This document shows positions 19,873 through 30,286 of a DNA stretch of 37,503 nucleotides, piece after piece. Location: positions 1 to 37,503 of the IMG/VR virus record IMGVR_UViG_3300032323_000557; one strand, written 5' to 3'. Position 1 is the stretch's first letter. Every line of letters begins with the position of its first letter. The notes under the pieces are model-generated. The model saw only the letters and a list, made by a program, of their open reading frames with translations, searched no databases and was not told the DNA's origin. The DNA is from a virus. Both the position numbers and the translations under genes were made by a program.

Positions 19873-19901
19873 AATATAAGGCATCAAAAAGTATTTGACA
19901 A
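19873..19901 (-). promoter_or_regulatory. Sigma-70 type promoter for the leftward operon
   Basis: On the minus strand TTGTCA (19901-19896) is 17 bases from TATATT (19878-19873). Transcription should start near 19866 and give a leader of about 14 bases. Its -35 overlaps the -35 of the rightward promoter by five bases. Confidence 0.7.
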
Positions 19902-19923
19902 GGATTATTTTAGGGTCTACAGT
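19895..19923 (+). promoter_or_regulatory. Sigma-70 type promoter for the replication operon
   Basis: A consensus TTGACA (19895-19900) is 17 bases from TACAGT (19918-19923). The start should be near 19930, just ahead of the 19958 gene. The hexamer lies within the longest reading frame of the next gene, which is one reason to reject a TTG start at 19895. Confidence 0.7.
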
Positions 19924-19957
19924 CGAGGCTCAATCACTACACGGGAGTACAGTAAAA

Positions 19958-20482
19958 ATGAGACTTACACATACCATGCGAGACGCATTTGTTCGTGCAG
20001 CCATGCACGACGTGCCAAAGGTTGATTACGATGAGCAGGTGCAGAAGTTCGTGCGCGAGTACGTCGCAGTCATGTTCGCAAGAGACTTCCCCGGCATCGA
20101 CATGAACGTCGTAATGGAAAAGAAATGGCTTAACAAAACGTCGCTGTGTCTGCCTGGCAATTTGAAAGGGCCCTACCTGTGCGCGCCAGATAACTGGCGG
20201 ATGCTTGAGGCCGACAAAAAAGCTTGGGACAAGCTCACTGAGTTAAGCGAAAAGAAAAACGCTCAGGAACGCACGCTGAGCGATCTTGAATCAAAACTCC
20301 GATCGGTCGCTTACTCGTGCAACACCAGAGCGCAGCTGCTCGAGGCGCTGCCTGAGTTCGAAAAGTATCTTCCTGCCGACGATGTCAAAGCAATTCGCAC
20401 ATTGCCGGCGCTTGCCAACGTGGTTGCCGACTTTGCGAAAGCGGGCTGGCCGAAAGACAAGAAGAAAGCGGTGGCGGCATGA
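19958..20482 (+). CDS. Nmad5-like protein (nucleotide-modification-associated), 174 aa
   Basis: The start is ATG 19958, with GGGAG ten bases upstream. This leaves the promoter outside the coding region. The N-terminus MRLTHTMRDAFVRAAMHDVPK and DYDEQVQKFV match the Nmad5 pattern as I recall it, a domain linked by genomic context to phage DNA base modification. The central region is less conserved. A coiled coil spans about residues 85-115 and the C-terminus is basic. No catalytic residues are known to me, so modification chemistry is not established. The stop overlaps the next start. Confidence 0.6.
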   Translation: MRLTHTMRDAFVRAAMHDVPKVDYDEQVQKFVREYVAVMFARDFPGIDMNVVMEKKWLNKTSLCLPGNLKGPYLCAPDNWRMLEADKKAWDKLTELSEKKNAQERTLSDLESKLRSVAYSCNTRAQLLEALPEFEKYLPADDVKAIRTLPALANVVADFAKAGWPKDKKKAVAA

Positions 20483-22235: not shown

Positions 22236-22326
22236 GTAGTACGGGGGAAAGCGGATGCTGGCGTGCGGCACTGCGTAAAGCGGAGCGCATTGCAGTCAGA
22301 CGCAGCGAGTACCCCACCTTTTCTAC

Positions 22327-22395
22327 GGCTCCTGTCATTTAATCATCAGGTTTTCCTTGGTCGGTTCGGCCTGATGCTGGCGGATGACAGGAGCC
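22327..22395 (+). repeat. Nested inverted repeat (12-bp outer, 7-bp inner stem)
   Basis: The arm 22327-22338 pairs perfectly with 22384-22395. Inside it 22344-22350 (CATCAGG) pairs with 22370-22376, leaving a 19-base loop. As RNA it would be a stable double hairpin with an internal loop. Confidence 0.8.
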
Positions 22396-22444
22396 ACCCT
22401 TACTATGCTAGTATTTGCATGTGCTTGGCGGCACGCTTACAGAC

Positions 22445-22526
22445 AAGCCCTGTTCTGCATTCTGCTCGGTGTCTGCCGAGTCCGCCAACGTCGCGAGACG
22501 AGAATGCAGAACAGGGCTTTTTTATT
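22445..22526 (+). terminator. 19-bp hairpin with internal branches and T-run
   Basis: A perfect 19-bp stem (22445-22463 with 22501-22519) is followed by a run of Ts ending at 22523. The 37-base interior forms two more hairpins: 22465-22469 with 22476-22480, and 22489-22492 with 22497-22500 closed by a GCGA tetraloop. As RNA it would be a three-way junction. It could terminate transcription ahead of the HNH gene or be a functional RNA. Confidence 0.7.
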
Positions 22527-22535
22527 GGTGATGTG

Positions 22536-23057
22536 ATGAAAGAGCGATGGAAACCTATACCCGGTTATGAAGGCCAGTATGAAGTTAGCGATCAAGGACG
22601 CGTGCGGTCTTCCACGCGTTTAGTTATGTGCGAGGGAACCGTTAAAGGTTCGTACTTTTCAGTTAAACAAGGGCGTATGCTAAAGCCGGGGCGTATGACG
22701 GCAGGGCATCTATCTGTAGCGCTTGGTAGACGCAACAGTCAGTGCGTACATAAATTAGTTTTGATGGCGTTTGTAGGGCCGGCGCCTGCTGGCTGCGAAT
22801 GTTTGCACGCAAATGGAAACCCAGCGGATAACCGACTGGTAAATTTGCGGTGGGGCACGCGTAGCGAAAATAACGTGGACGCGATCCTACATCAGCGCAG
22901 AGGAAAGCTAACCAGAGCGCAAATAAAAGACATTCGCGCGCGCCTCGAATCGAAAGAATGGGGTCTTGGGCGAAAATTGGCTAAGGAGTATGGCGTGCAT
23001 GAGTCAACGATAAGCGCGATAAAAGTTCGGAGGCACTATGCGTGTTTTGTGGATTGA
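22536..23057 (+). CDS. HNH homing-type endonuclease with NUMOD4 domain, 173 aa
   Basis: ATG 22536 is taken as the start because the NUMOD4 DNA-binding motif begins directly after it (WKPIPGYEGQYEVSDQGRVRS). The HNH centre follows (H72, then CLHANGNPADN with His91 and Asn99, LRWGTRSEN). A C-terminal helix-turn-helix is visible (LAKEYGVHESTISAIKV). Free-standing genes of this type are selfish and spread by cutting uninfected alleles. The gene stands between two replication genes, overlaps the polymerase start by 20 bases, and follows a structured leader; its ribosome site is poor. Confidence 0.85.
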   Translation: MKERWKPIPGYEGQYEVSDQGRVRSSTRLVMCEGTVKGSYFSVKQGRMLKPGRMTAGHLSVALGRRNSQCVHKLVLMAFVGPAPAGCECLHANGNPADNRLVNLRWGTRSENNVDAILHQRRGKLTRAQIKDIRARLESKEWGLGRKLAKEYGVHESTISAIKVRRHYACFVD

Positions 23058-25025: not shown

Positions 25026-27329
25026 ATGGAATTCCTTGATTATATCCAAAATCTCGCACCCGAGGGCGAAACAGCCTTGATCGTGCGTCAAAAACCTATC
25101 CTAGCCGACGGCGAGCTGCAGCTGCACGCGGACGGCGCCGTCAAGTGTACGTGGCCAGCGTACCTGCCCAAACACAAGCGCAAGGACGGCGAGAGCTGGT
25201 ACGGCAACACAGCGTCATTCATCAAAGACCGCTTCAAGGATGGCCGCCCCAGCGCATCGGCCGCCAACTGCGAATACATCCTAGTGATGATGTTAGACGA
25301 CATCGGCACCAAATCGAAGACACCACCACTGGAGCCGACTTGGATCATGGAGACCTCACCCGGCTCGTTCCAGTGGGGCTACGCATTCTCAGAGCAGCCA
25401 ACCAAGGCCGACTTCGCAGCAGCGATCCGCGCGATTGCTGATGCCGGTTACACAGACCCTGGCGCCTGCAACCCGGTGCGCAACTTTCGGCTACCCGGCT
25501 CGGTTAACATCAAGCCAGGCCGCGAGAGCTTCAAGGCGCAGCTGGCACGCTTCAATCCCGAGCGCGAGTACACGCTGGAGCAAATCTGCACGGCGCTGGA
25601 CGTCACCCCTGTCGCCGGTGTCGGCCTTGGACCCACACCGATCCGGCTGCAAGACGACGGCAACGACGACGTCATGGCGTGGCTCTCGGAGCAAGGGCTC
25701 TTTTTGCGGCACACAAACCCCGAAGGCTGGGCTGGCGTCATCTGCCCGAACCATGCCGAACACACGGACGGCAACCCTGAAGGGCGCTACCACCCGGCAA
25801 ACCGGGCGTACTGCTGCCTGCACTCGCACTGCATCGAACTGGGCTCGGCTGCTTTTCTGGAGTGGGTCGCGGCCAATGGCGGGCCACAGCACACGCCTGG
25901 CCCACGTCAGGAGCTGCTTGCCGCTGTTATGACCGCAGCATTGGCTAAGCTGCCCGATTCGGGTATGTTCGAAGACACGGCCGAAAAAGTCATGCAGGCC
26001 ACTGACGCACGCTCTAAGCGCCGTGAGATAAATAAGCTAGAAAAGTCCGACTGGTTCAAGAGGTTTGCCTATGTTCAAGAAGATGAAAGCTTTTTTGATA
26101 TGGACGATCGCAGGGAAATTTCTCGATCTACTTTTAACGCACTTTTCCGGCATATCCCCTGCCGGTCCATACATAACGGCGCAAAAATTGAGGCGGCTAC
26201 GTGTTTCGACGAGAATCGCCAATCAGAGGACGCTTATGCGCTGGTCGGCATAACGTACGCCGCCGGCGAGGAAGTCGTCGTTGAGCGGCAAGGGCATCAG
26301 TACGGCAACCGCTGGCGCGACGCTCGGCCTGCAGGCATACCAGGCGACGTGACACCGTGGCTCGACCATGTCACGCGCATGATCCCGACCGACTTTGAGC
26401 GTGAGCATTTCTTGAACGCGCTGGCCTTCAAGGTCCAGCACCCCGAGCGCAAGATCAACCACGCTATTTTGATCGGCGGACACCCTGGGTCGGGCAAAGA
26501 CACCATGCTGGCGCCGTTTTTCTGGGCGATCGGCGGGTTGACTAAGCAGAACTGCAGCCTGGTTAAGAACGAAGACCTAAACTCGCAGTGGGGCTACGCG
26601 CTCGAATGCGAGGTGATGGAGATCGCCGAGCTGCGCCAGAGCGAGGCGCGCGATAGGCGTGCGCTCGAGAACGCCCTAAAGCCCATCATCGCAGCACCTC
26701 CAGAGCTGCTACAGGTCAACCGCAAGGGCTTGCACCCCTATATGGCGCTAAACCGCGTGTTTGTCGTCGCGTTTTCGAACGAGCGTGCAGCGATCTCCAT
26801 CCCATCAAACGACCGCCGCTGGTTCTGCCTGTGGGCAGAAGCAGGCCGCCTGCCCGAAGCAGACGCGTCGCGCCTGTGGCGCTGGTATCACAATGGCGGC
26901 TTTGAGGCGATCGCATCCTGGCTGCATACCCGTGACGTATCGGCCTTTAACCCTTCAGCGGCTCCACCGATGACCGAAGCTAAAGCGATCATGATCGACC
27001 AGGGTCGCAGCACCGCAGAATCGTACCTGATCGAGCAGATCAGCGGCCGGCTGGGTGAGTTTGCAAGCGGCGTCATTGCGTCACCCTTTTTCGCACTCTG
27101 TGACCGCTTAGCAGGCGCTGCGCCTTCAGGCGTCAAGATTCCACAGGTCGCGCTTCTGCACGCGCTGAGCGAGGCCGGCTGGGTCGATATGGGGCGCATC
27201 CACTCGTCCGAACATCAGACCAGGAAACAAATCTACTGCGCGCCGGAGCTGGCGACCCTGTCGAAAGCAGAACTGCGCCGGCGAGCTGAAGATATGCCAG
27301 CGCCCGCAGCTGTGCGACTGGTTAAATAG
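25026..27329 (+). CDS. Primase-helicase, 767 aa
   Basis: The N-terminal 200 residues resemble the RepB/AEP-type primase of phages (YILVMMLDDIGTKSK, TWIMETSPGSFQWGYAF, NPVRNFRLPGSVN). A zinc-binding segment follows: C240-x2-H243-x2-H246 and the CCLHSHC cluster at 263-269. A DUF5906-like SF3 helicase domain has Walker A GGHPGSGKD (Lys491) and a winged tail. It would prime and unwind DNA for the polymerase encoded just upstream. The start is ATG 25026. It is the last gene of the rightward operon and ends opposite the leftward terminator. Confidence 0.85.
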   Translation: MEFLDYIQNLAPEGETALIVRQKPILADGELQLHADGAVKCTWPAYLPKHKRKDGESWYGNTASFIKDRFKDGRPSASAANCEYILVMMLDDIGTKSKTPPLEPTWIMETSPGSFQWGYAFSEQPTKADFAAAIRAIADAGYTDPGACNPVRNFRLPGSVNIKPGRESFKAQLARFNPEREYTLEQICTALDVTPVAGVGLGPTPIRLQDDGNDDVMAWLSEQGLFLRHTNPEGWAGVICPNHAEHTDGNPEGRYHPANRAYCCLHSHCIELGSAAFLEWVAANGGPQHTPGPRQELLAAVMTAALAKLPDSGMFEDTAEKVMQATDARSKRREINKLEKSDWFKRFAYVQEDESFFDMDDRREISRSTFNALFRHIPCRSIHNGAKIEAATCFDENRQSEDAYALVGITYAAGEEVVVERQGHQYGNRWRDARPAGIPGDVTPWLDHVTRMIPTDFEREHFLNALAFKVQHPERKINHAILIGGHPGSGKDTMLAPFFWAIGGLTKQNCSLVKNEDLNSQWGYALECEVMEIAELRQSEARDRRALENALKPIIAAPPELLQVNRKGLHPYMALNRVFVVAFSNERAAISIPSNDRRWFCLWAEAGRLPEADASRLWRWYHNGGFEAIASWLHTRDVSAFNPSAAPPMTEAKAIMIDQGRSTAESYLIEQISGRLGEFASGVIASPFFALCDRLAGAAPSGVKIPQVALLHALSEAGWVDMGRIHSSEHQTRKQIYCAPELATLSKAELRRRAEDMPAPAAVRLVK

Positions 27330-27735: not shown

Positions 27736-28012
27736 TAGACAAATCCTCCAGCAAAGGGATTGACGGGTCATATAGCGCTGTGCCGGAATAGTTAAGCATT
27801 TCCGTGTAATCGCATGGCACAAGATGATTTAACGTTTCAAATTGGCGGACATAATCGCCTGTTGACATCGTGCCGGCGTAATCTTTGGGAAACTTGCGGA
27901 TGTCTTTCGGTTTTTTTGGTTTCCATGCCTTGCGGGCGAGTTTCGCCCACTCGATCGGGCATTTGTCGAATTTGAGTGTGTACGTAGTGCCGTCAATGTT
28001 TAGTGTTTGCAT
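27719..28012 (-). CDS. Small phage protein, 97 aa, unknown function
   Basis: AAGGAG lies eight bases before ATG 28012, within the recurring GGAGAATCGACCATG leader of this operon. The sequence begins MQTLNIDGTTYTLKFDKC and has a Lys-rich middle (AWKPKKPKDIRKFPKDY) and an acidic end. It is a probable compact alpha/beta protein. No known family was seen. Confidence 0.6.
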   Translation of the reverse strand: MQTLNIDGTTYTLKFDKCPIEWAKLARKAWKPKKPKDIRKFPKDYAGTMSTGDYVRQFETLNHLVPCDYTEMLNYSGTALYDPSIPLLEDLSNENAN

Positions 28013-28028: not shown

Positions 28029-28181
28029 TTACCACAGCGCAGCGCCGTGAGTTTCGATTGTGGGCGCTTGCGCCCGTTTGCGCGTTACTTTGCGCGTTAT
28101 GTAAGGCCGGCCTGCCGCTGGCGGGAAATCGCGCCAACAACAGACCGCCCCGAAGTCATCTAGCCAGCCGTACTGCGTCAT
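28029..28181 (-). CDS. Very small protein, 50 aa
   Basis: ATG 28181 overlaps the previous stop (ATGA at 28178-28181), so translation is coupled even without its own ribosome site. The product starts MTQYGWLDDFGAVCCWRDF and becomes basic (ITRKVTRKRAQ). It fills the otherwise empty space between two genes. Unrecognised. Confidence 0.5.
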   Translation of the reverse strand: MTQYGWLDDFGAVCCWRDFPPAAGRPYITRKVTRKRAQAPTIETHGAALW

Positions 28182-28501
28182 GCGTTTTCGGTCTCTTTAT
28201 GGCATACGTGGCAATAATCGTATTCATTGTCGCTAACATAGGATTCCATTTCCCAATAGGTGTCGAAATCATGCTCTTCGCCGCACTCAGGGCATGAATA
28301 AGACCATTTGACATCGAATCCGATTGAGCAGTAGACGCAGCCCGTCCAACATTCACCAATAACCCATACATTGCCGGAGTTTTCATTGACCCCTGCGCAG
28401 GTATAAGCGTCAACAGTTAAGCCAGCAGCGCGGATAGCTTTGACGCACTCAAAAAAGCGGTCAAGATCAGCACCTTGAAATTGCTCAAATAAATTTGTCA
28501 T
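28178..28501 (-). CDS. Cys-rich zinc-binding-like protein, 107 aa
   Basis: The N-terminal half is an alpha/beta domain (FEQFQGADLDRFFECVKAI). The C-terminal half carries a pair of knuckles: CPECGEEH and CHVCHKE, plus other cysteines (CWTGCVYC), suited to bind one or two zinc ions. Such small zinc proteins can bind nucleic acid or host proteins. A GGAGAACTGACCATG leader precedes the start. Function unknown. Confidence 0.65.
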   Translation of the reverse strand: MTNLFEQFQGADLDRFFECVKAIRAAGLTVDAYTCAGVNENSGNVWVIGECWTGCVYCSIGFDVKWSYSCPECGEEHDFDTYWEMESYVSDNEYDYCHVCHKETENA

Positions 28502-28519
28502 GGTCAGTTCTCCTGTAGA

Positions 28520-28735
28520 TTAGATAGATTGTTTGGACACAATAAAATCAGCTAGAAATACTTCAAGCAAGCGGACGCGCTCGAGACCCTCGAAATCGCC
28601 GTTTGCATCATTCCACTCCAATGCGCGGATGATGACGTCATCCGGTGCGGAATAAATGTCCCATGCGTCATGTGGCACGCCGTGAAATAGTTCGACAATT
28701 TGGCCTTCAGTAAAAGTGTAAGAAAGATTGCTCAT
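28520..28735 (-). CDS. Small acidic protein, 71 aa, unknown function
   Basis: The protein has MSNLSYTFTEGQIVELFHGVP and VRLLEVFLADFIV, and many Asp/Glu in between. Leader CAGGAGAACCGATCATG is nearly the same as that of the 28501 gene, over about 28 bases. Acidic small proteins in early phage operons often bind host enzymes or mimic DNA; that is only a possibility here. Confidence 0.6.
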   Translation of the reverse strand: MSNLSYTFTEGQIVELFHGVPHDAWDIYSAPDDVIIRALEWNDANGDFEGLERVRLLEVFLADFIVSKQSI

Positions 28736-28753
28736 GATCGGTTCTCCTGTAGG

Positions 28754-28969
28754 TTAGATATTGGCTAAATCGTGAATTTGCCGGCAAATGCCGACTTGTC
28801 CGTCTATTGGATGCGTCAAGTCAAAATTGTCGCGAATGTGCCGCAGCCAATATTGGCCAGCCATTGTCTGCATGACGATATACCGCTCGCCTGATTCGGC
28901 GATAACATGGTCGCCTGATGCGACCGGATTAACAAGCGCGTTTACTTTTGAGTGGTGATGGACGTTCAT
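28754..28969 (-). CDS. Small phage protein, 71 aa
   Basis: The start is ATG 28969 with AAGGA upstream. The longer in-frame extension overlaps the preceding gene without support. The N-terminus is His-rich (MNVHHHSKVN), then a small beta-like domain (GDHVIAESGERYIVMQTMAGQYWLRHI). No family was recognised; it could be an SH3-like or KOW-like fold by pattern, but this is weak. Confidence 0.55.
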   Translation of the reverse strand: MNVHHHSKVNALVNPVASGDHVIAESGERYIVMQTMAGQYWLRHIRDNFDLTHPIDGQVGICRQIHDLANI

Positions 28970-28991
28970 GGTCGGTTTCCTTATCAAGTTA

Positions 28992-29156
28992 TTAAATGTC
29001 GCTGTCGCTTGTGGTGACGTGCGCGGCGGCGCATGCGAGCCATATTGCCGTCCACATAATCGCTTCGGCGCTGTCAAATACGCGGGTCAGCGTGCCAATA
29101 ACGATCAGCGTGCCAAGAGCGGCTAGTGCGAGTGTCTGAATAGTTTTAAGTTTCAT
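28992..29156 (-). CDS. Small two-span membrane protein, 54 aa
   Basis: ATG 29156 is preceded by AAGGGG. Two hydrophobic helices are visible: about residues 8-23 (TLALAALGTLIVIG) and 34-45 (MWTAIWLACAAA). The ends are short. A membrane role during infection, for instance exclusion or host-membrane alteration, is only inference. The longer in-frame start is not supported. Confidence 0.55.
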   Translation of the reverse strand: MKLKTIQTLALAALGTLIVIGTLTRVFDSAEAIMWTAIWLACAAAHVTTSDSDI

Positions 29157-29405: not shown

Positions 29406-29429
29406 GAAACACATGTTAGTCCGTGTTTC
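29406..29429. promoter_or_regulatory. Operator-like inverted repeat over the -10 region
   Basis: GAAACAC (29406-29412) and GTGTTTC (29423-29429) are perfect inverted arms separated by ten bases. The gap holds the -10 hexamer of the leftward promoter. A dimeric regulator bound here would block that promoter. A further small palindrome GACAAATGTC covers its -35 (29430-29439). Confidence 0.6.
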
Positions 29430-29441
29430 GACAAATGTCAA
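29413..29441 (-). promoter_or_regulatory. Sigma-70 type promoter of the leftward small-gene operon
   Basis: Consensus TTGACA (29441-29436) with 17-base spacing to TAACAT (29418-29413) on the minus strand. Start near 29406 gives a leader of about 39 bases. Confidence 0.75.
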
Positions 29442-29586
29442 ACAATGTTTTGCATTTATTTGCGATTCGCGGTTCCAATGGTCATTTAGGGGGCAAAATG
29501 GTCATGAAATGGTCATTTGGCGAGGGTGAATGACCATGGCAAAACCCGCTTGTAGACTAGGTTTTGGCCAATAATGGTCAAATGGT

Positions 29587-29628
29587 CATTTATTTTTAGA
29601 TGTTAGTAGTAATAATAAGTAATATAGG
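29587..29628. other. AT-rich tract, possible DNA-unwinding element
   Basis: About 40 bases of nearly pure A/T (TTTATTTTTAGATG..., TAATAATAAG...) stand between the two halves of the repeat array. Next to iterons this is what a DNA-unwinding element of a replication origin looks like. Function is inference. Confidence 0.5.
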
Positions 29629-29665
29629 GGAATGCCGTGCCGTGCGCGCCGGAATGCCGTGCCGT
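29629..29665. repeat. 15-base direct repeat pair (22-base period)
   Basis: GGAATGCCGTGCCGT occurs exactly at 29629-29643 and again at 29651-29665. They lie beside the AT-rich tract inside the iteron-like array and may be a second protein-binding site. Confidence 0.8.
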
Positions 29666-29683
29666 CACGCAAAAATTTTGATT

Positions 29684-29711
29684 TTGCGCTGGGGGTCTGA
29701 GCGATTAAAAT
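29684..29711 (+). promoter_or_regulatory. Candidate promoter for the 29754 gene
   Basis: TTGCGC (29684-29689) and TAAAAT (29706-29711) at 16-base spacing, the latter matching the -10 consensus at five of six. Start near 29718 would lie on the triple TGACCAT block (29715-29738), so the repeats could act as an operator. The -35 is weak. Confidence 0.35.
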
Positions 29712-29753
29712 TGCATGACCATTTGACCATTTGACCATGTCAGAGTGATAACT

Positions 29754-29969
29754 ATGCCTTCTGGCCGTCCAGCATCAATTCGCACGCGGTATTTTTCCCG
29801 GCGCATTTCCGATAATGACGCCGCTATCCTTGCTCATGCCGGCGCCGGCGATATTAGTTTAGGGTTTAAGAACATACTTGATTTATATTGTCAAACTGTC
29901 AATATGAGTAAAAGTAATGATAAGTCTGAATGTCATTCGACTGAACAATATAGCGATAATGGCCAATAA
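29754..29969 (+). CDS. Small protein, possible ribbon-helix-helix DNA-binding regulator, 71 aa
   Basis: The start is ATG 29754 (or GTG 29745). Residues 7-16 (ASIRTRYFSRRI) could be the beta strand and SDNDAAILAHAG plus GFKNILDLYCQTV two helices, the order of a ribbon-helix-helix fold. The end is hydrophilic (KSNDKSECHSTEQYSDNG). It lies immediately behind the three tandem TGACCAT repeats, a natural place for the gene of the protein that binds them. The fold call is visual and unverified. Confidence 0.5.
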   Translation: MPSGRPASIRTRYFSRRISDNDAAILAHAGAGDISLGFKNILDLYCQTVNMSKSNDKSECHSTEQYSDNGQ

Positions 29970-30041
29970 CTTGCGGCCGTGAAGTACCGGCAAAAGGGTC
30001 CCGCTTCCTCTCACGTTCACGCCCCACCCCATAGCCTTCCC

Positions 30042-30228
30042 CTATCAATCCCTGGATATCGATAGTCACCCCTCTCGCTCATAGCCGGCACCTATCGCCG
30101 CCGATTATGCGCACATATAACCTACGTTATGTCAAACGCGCCTGATAGCCGCTTGCTATCATTGGCGGCCGTTTGCCGGCGGTTTGTTATCATTTTGATA
30201 GGGGGGAGGGGGGTCTGCCTGGCTATCA
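30042..30228. repeat. CTATC/GATAG repeat cluster in noncoding region before late genes
   Basis: Occurrences: CTATCA 30042-30047, TATCGATAG 30057-30065, CTATCG 30092-30097, TGATAG 30143-30148, CTATCA 30156-30161, TTATCA 30187-30192, TGATAG 30196-30201 and CTATCA 30223-30228. Several form inverted pairs, for example TATCA-TTT-TGATA. The stretch 29970-30349 has no convincing gene. It is C-rich to about 30110 and has G-runs near 30201-30213. It probably holds regulatory sites for the late operon or part of the origin. Confidence 0.65.
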
Positions 30229-30286
30229 AAATTTGCGGGAGCCGCCTACCCTCTGAAAAAGCAAAATTAGACCCCCAGCTACTAGC

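Follow-up and report, generated by a model that had tools for sequence, protein, structure and literature searches.

The repeat array at 29478-29738 of the window (the whole 37.5-kb stretch of viral DNA analyzed here) is probably a replication origin that the phage's own primase-helicase contacts through its wing, and comparison with relatives suggests that the array's repeated word has changed over and over in step with that wing. Computed directly across relatives, the array had a conserved layout, its word turned over, and the covariation between protein residues and word was confined to the wing. We favor an origin because the array covaries with the presumed DNA-binding end of the primase-helicase. 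The phage belongs to a family of podovirus-like aquatic bacterial viruses, and the genome is probably complete at about 37.4 kb because the record carries a 116-base terminal repeat. Features are listed in Table 1.

An earlier note on this DNA had described nine exact TGACCAT/ATGGTCA cores around an AT-rich tract, with period-8 tandems and a 15-base repeat pair. All nine copies were where it had placed them (29478, 29498, 29509, 29531, 29574, 29582, 29716, 29724, and 29732; five ATGGTCA and four TGACCAT), and the remaining elements matched its description, the period-8 tandems falling at 29574/29582 and 29716/29724/29732. In the genome-wide motif count that it had proposed, the window contained the 7-mer 15 times, against a mean of 4.2 and a maximum of 9 in shuffled sequence. 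The array word was also the best-clustering 7-mer anywhere in the window, and the best cluster of any 7-mer within 261 bases reached 3-5 copies in 30 shuffles versus the 9 observed, which confirmed the nine-copy cluster as real and far beyond chance. No second TGACCAT cluster occurred in the 37.5 kb. Two of the outlying matches to the 7-mer, at 28500 and 29361, covered start codons of leftward ORFs. Mutually similar repeats of 16-34 bases (CATGGTCxxTTCTCCT) at 28010, 28499, and 28733 each spanned the start codon and ribosome site of a leftward gene in a consecutive series.

The copies are laid out as <<< > << ... >>>, with the AT-rich tract, the 15-base pair, and AGCGATTAAAAT between << and >>>. 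A AGCGAYTNAAAA-like sequence occupied the place of AGCGATTAAAAT in most relatives, though their words change. The right arm, which ends 15 bases before the ATG at 29754, has a period of 8 in the window and 9 in most relatives. In fold predictions the copy at 29531-29537 was able to pair locally with that at 29509, and the region of the long inverted repeat folded as a single strand with z = -4.4. We rejected an RNA family as an explanation since Rfam returned nothing above threshold. There was no DnaA box (TTATNCACA) within 10 kb of the array, and GC skew, another check raised by the earlier note, had no clear turning point there.

Table 1 Coordinates of the array, the proposed initiator, and neighboring features in the window.
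Feature	Position	Strand	Evidence or detail
Primase-helicase, proposed initiator: RepB_primase-type AEP N-terminus, DUF5906 helicase region	25026..27329	+	Pfam
C-terminal winged-helix-like domain, aa 660-756	27003..27293	+	AlphaFold2 model
Wing residues 726-731 (HSSEHQ), tracking the array word	27201..27218	+	Covariation
Leftward early operon promoter, sigma-70-like TTGACA-17-TAACAT	29413..29441	-	Consensus match only
Left arm '<<<', three ATGGTCA (29478, 29498, 29509)	29478..29515	-	Word count, layout comparison
Single opposed TGACCAT, '>' of the layout	29531..29537	+	Word count, layout comparison
Long inverted repeat, 29573-29598 with 29706-29731	29573..29731	.	26 nt, 88% complementary
Middle tandem pair ATGGTCAAATGGTCA, '<<', directly left of the AT-rich tract	29574..29588	-	Word count, repeats
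AT-rich tract, candidate DNA-unwinding element	29589..29626	.	Sequence
15-base repeat pair GGAATGCCGTGCCGT, 29629-29643 and 29651-29665	29629..29665	.	Repeat search
Constant element AGCGATTAAAAT	29700..29711	+	Comparison with relatives
Right arm '>>>', three tandem TGACCAT	29716..29738	+	Word count, relatives
71-aa conserved neighbor, two predicted helices, ribbon-helix-helix-like by pattern only	29754..29969	+	

We scanned IMG/VR with the primase (25026-27329) and recovered 80 loci, only some of which contained the exact word TGACCAT. Relatives were searched for any repeated word in the region corresponding to the array. Of the 117 loci with enough sequence, 69 had an array by the automatic search; two of these 69 were later set aside as misdetected. 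Besides TGACCAT, arrays were built from TTGCCCTCA, TTGCCTACA, TTGCCGACA, TGACTACA, TGACCCACA, TTGCCCACA, TGACGTGCA, TTGTCCACA, and TTGCTTACA, and the distant phage MW202483 (primase 52% identical) had its own array of GTTTACAT. Position 4 of the word could be T or C within single arrays. The order, orientation, and much of the spacing of the layout persisted across relatives while the word changed. The earlier note had taken absence of the motif from close relatives with the same gene order as evidence against its reading. TGACCAT is indeed absent from several such relatives, but the test misleads because they have the same array spelled in another word. We dropped a position-weight motif finder whose motifs had slid toward GC-rich background, and Vibrio phages 1.185.O and MZH0603 were rejected as array carriers, having only low-complexity repeats inside annotated genes. 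Two different relatives (L271 and L272) lay within one Rhodoferax metagenome bin, and these MAG contigs weakly hint at a betaproteobacterial host.

Among the shared genes tested, only the primase-helicase tracked the word, at six residues (aa 726-731) that were hypervariable within an otherwise conserved stretch. Wings HSSEHQ or HSAEHQ accompanied TGACCAT, STREHQ accompanied TTGCCCTCA, HSRDFN TGACCCACA, NTRE[LH]T TGACGTGCA, KSRDYD TTGTCCACA, MSRE[FY]T TGACTA, and KSSLHD a new word, TTGTCCATA. Word tracking was absent in terS, terL, polA, ssb, the exonuclease, the helicase, the VRR nuclease, portal, small early ORFs, and the 29754 product. We quantified the association without word classes by comparing residue identity with shared repeated 6-mers in 180 related-phage pairs from 45 loci, with overall primase identity removed. 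Given as effect sizes rather than p-values because the pairs are not statistically independent, partial r was 0.88 at aa 731 and 0.83 at aa 726, followed by two more wing positions, aa 728 (0.46) and aa 733 (0.43). Primase columns beyond the wing reached at most 0.40, and the best in six other gene families was ≤0.28. Clade-stratified mutual information with hand-assigned words ranked aa 731 and 726 first (z about 10-12) of 877 variable columns from six families, among them polA, ssb, and terS. Where the remainder of the primase was ≥85% identical, pairs shared words in 94% of cases with an identical wing and in 18% with a wing differing at ≥3 of the 6 residues, and for pairs <75% identical the values were 60% (10 pairs) with the same wing versus 6% with a different one. 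Contrasts of TGACCAT with the other words and of TGACGTGCA with TTGCCCACA each selected primase columns within aa 726-731. Word and wing thus look like a private lock and key.

Phages with Arg728 had words ending in ..CA while those with Ser, Ala, His, or Gly at 728, from several lineages, had words ending in ..AT or ..AA, a rule noticed after the fact and prompted by the pairing of KSSLHD with TTGTCCATA. The joint presence or loss of Arg728 and the C in the word would be contact-like. Two loci from a bacterial genome collection (Rhodoferax MAG), outside the set in which the rule was noticed, fit it: the KSRRHD locus strongly, with ten GTCCACA, and the ASREFQ locus weakly, with a weaker GCCTACA/GCCCACA cluster. 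When coarse word classes were predicted for new loci by nearest neighbor, the wing did poorly, with 15/37 correct and thus no better than the 14/37 obtained with the remaining primase sequence. Part of the reason was that T/C variants occurring together in one array fell into separate classes, and some new wings, such as KSSLHD, had no match in the training set. Merging word classes for a pairwise score did not work, since one word can be read by different wings, and whole-gene presence or absence compared with the word was confounded by clade or empty.

AlphaFold2, run on aa 601-767 with 49 relatives, gave pLDDT values of about 84-95 over aa 671-750 and a model that is good only for about aa 670-755. 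The model runs helix, short strand, helix, helix, strand, strand, helix (helices 663-673, 688-698, 707-716, and 747-755; strands 720-725 and 734-738). Residues 726-733 form the loop joining the two listed strands, after the helix pair, so that 726-731 would occupy the wing position of a winged-helix-like fold. The helix at 707-716, before the wing strands, was highly conserved. Fold-library searches matched many winged-helix proteins, each weakly, with a best E of 0.08 and none ≤0.001, and Pfam gave no significant winged-helix match. At the other end of the protein, an AEP-type primase domain was present by a RepB_primase match just above that model's cut-off (E 2.6e-5), and Pfam found no Toprim (DnaG-type) domain. 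The DUF5906 match (E 8e-10) covered a region similar to phage primase-helicases, and a weak PDB match was to 'Primase' 6k9e/6k9c (E 0.006). The neighboring replication module encodes a family-A DNA polymerase (polA), a DUF2800 exonuclease, a VRR-NUC nuclease, and an SNF2 helicase. An HNH/NUMOD4 homing-endonuclease-like ORF at 22263-23057, between an ssb-like gene and the DNA polymerase, was absent from most relatives. An Nmad5 (nucleotide modification associated domain 5) gene at 19895-20482 had no homolog in the other phages of the set and may point to lineage-specific base modification.

We infer physical binding of the array, origin firing, and unwinding at the AT tract from these patterns. 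The iterons and the AT-rich unwinding tract would form the origin of this podovirus-like phage, and its primase-helicase would be the initiator. The C-terminal winged-helix-like domain would read the repeats, 8-9 bp apiece, and wing residues 726-731 would be the main determinants of base specificity. Binding at several copies in the fixed <<< > << ... >>> layout would lead to helicase assembly and opening of the AT-rich tract, and the primase domain would prime for the phage-encoded family-A polymerase. Each lineage would have a private origin address. A distance of 2.1 kb separates the array from the primase gene, and early promoter regions overlap the array, so that the same protein could also have an operator role; autoregulation of the divergent promoters is possible alongside the origin role. 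The inverted repeat of the arms may add a stem-loop, by analogy with the pRN1 model.

The same protein could instead use the array chiefly as a transcriptional operator for the divergent early promoters and 29754, with replication starting elsewhere, a reading that we consider unlikely. The array does fill the divergent intergenic region, its right arm falling within the 29754 leader and its left arm about 40-75 bp upstream of the -35 of the leftward promoter. However, the apparent reader is a primase-helicase rather than a dedicated regulator, and nine sites in a fixed layout with an AT-rich tract suit an origin better; both roles may coexist. Origin function through a stem-loop, as proposed for pRN1 and phage BIP-1 (PMC4234260), in which arm complementarity is conserved and no protein recognizes the word in duplex DNA, seems highly improbable to us. 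The 26-nt inverted repeat and its fold score are in keeping with it, but pairing leaves unexplained why all nine copies, the unpaired left ones included, use one word, and does not explain the covariation with wing residues. Structure may still add to function.

The earlier note had left open an origin or an operator, with an initiator or a small multimeric regulator as binder and the 29754 product as a candidate. The origin with an initiator on iterons gained support from the covariation, but the Omega-like regulator did not. We give almost no credence to an operator at which the ribbon-helix-helix-like 29754 product binds contiguous heptads and autoregulates. The gene directly adjoins the array in about 50 loci and its two predicted helices are compatible with a ribbon-helix-helix, yet its sequence does not track the word, the best column reaching an r of only 0.27, whereas the primase reached 0.88. 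The homologs in L006 and L007 are identical over their first 51 residues but the words differ, and L008 has a homolog about 89% identical to that of the window, yet another word. The product had no Pfam, PHROG, or PDB match, and many array-bearing relatives had no detectable homolog. It possibly has a role in regulation.

Three small leftward ORFs of the window (28178-28501, 28520-28735, and 28754-29077, all on the minus strand) had few or no homologs in close relatives, and 28178-29077 (-) is a hypervariable early region. The leftward early operon of many relatives contained a gene of 210-280 aa (L007:10419-11258 and counterparts); two scanned forms matched Pfam GP88, and no homolog was detected in the window. 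On the other side, a second short inverted-repeat cluster (CTATCA/TGATAG, ATAGCC) at 30028-30232, immediately before the presumed small terminase gene (30350), is a candidate packaging (pac/cos) site. At roughly the same place, relatives had other words, CACTAAC/AAGTTAG in one clade and CGGCCAG in another.

Returning to the origin bound by the primase-helicase wing, we see about an even chance that about ten or more words arose in one family through a rapidly rewritable code in the wing, driven by conflict at the origin, with a residue-to-base code readable from natural covariation. Satellites, origin-directed nucleases, and co-infecting relatives would fit as sources of conflict. In the PLE satellites of V. 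cholerae the iterons covary with the initiator domain, and selection for swaps was proposed to come from a phage nuclease (Odn) against the PLE origin (PMC8263062). By analogy, word change here would fit with a conflict of that kind, or with a need for co-infecting phages to avoid cross-talk.

The DNA motif bound by initiators with an AEP primase and SF3 helicase has been described as unknown (PMC4234260). The natural pairs of initiator and array compared here, more than 60, supply such a motif together with a few specificity residues. They form a dense natural data set on an essential protein-DNA interface that changes specificity on both sides at once, and possibly a source of orthogonal origin-initiator pairs. 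Unlike DnaA-dependent iteron plasmid origins, this array has no DnaA box beside it. The operators of the Omega repressor (pSM19035) are contiguous short repeats in both orientations; the array here shares such repeats and orientations, but its proposed reader is not the adjacent small protein.

In the P4 alpha protein, primase, helicase, and a C-terminal winged helix binding origin repeats occur in one polypeptide (PMC4234260, citing Ziegelin and Lanka 1995; Yeo et al. 2002). The protein here has RepB_primase and DUF5906 matches and a C-terminal winged-helix-like model, and covariation suggests that it may bind the origin. The primase is of Toprim (DnaG) type in P4 and of RepB_primase/AEP type here, and P4 has a second, distant iteron cluster (crr), whereas none was found in the window. 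The variety of words that go with particular wing residues sets this system apart from P4 and is, as far as we found in the literature, new. ORF904 of pRN1 and the protein of Bordetella phage BIP-1 combine an AEP-type primase with an SF3 helicase and a winged helix at the C-terminus and act at a site downstream of their own gene, where an inverted repeat can form a stem-loop; no origin iterons were found, the bound motif was stated as unidentified, and ORF904 was proposed to act like P4 alpha in binding, helicase assembly, opening, and priming (PMC4234260). We found the same primase type and an inverted repeat downstream of the replication gene, but here with a nine-copy iteron array, 2.1 kb downstream. 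The winged-helix protein TcpK of plasmid pCW3 reads tandem nine-nucleotide repeats at oriT with its beta-wing in a solved structure (PMC6137059), as we propose for the wing here; TcpK differs as a separate small dimer acting in transfer, with a single word described. The PLE RepA_N initiator shares covariation of its DNA-binding domain with iterons (PMC8263062) but has an unrelated fold, and its two ori types arise by domain swap, compared with many words through a few wing residues here.
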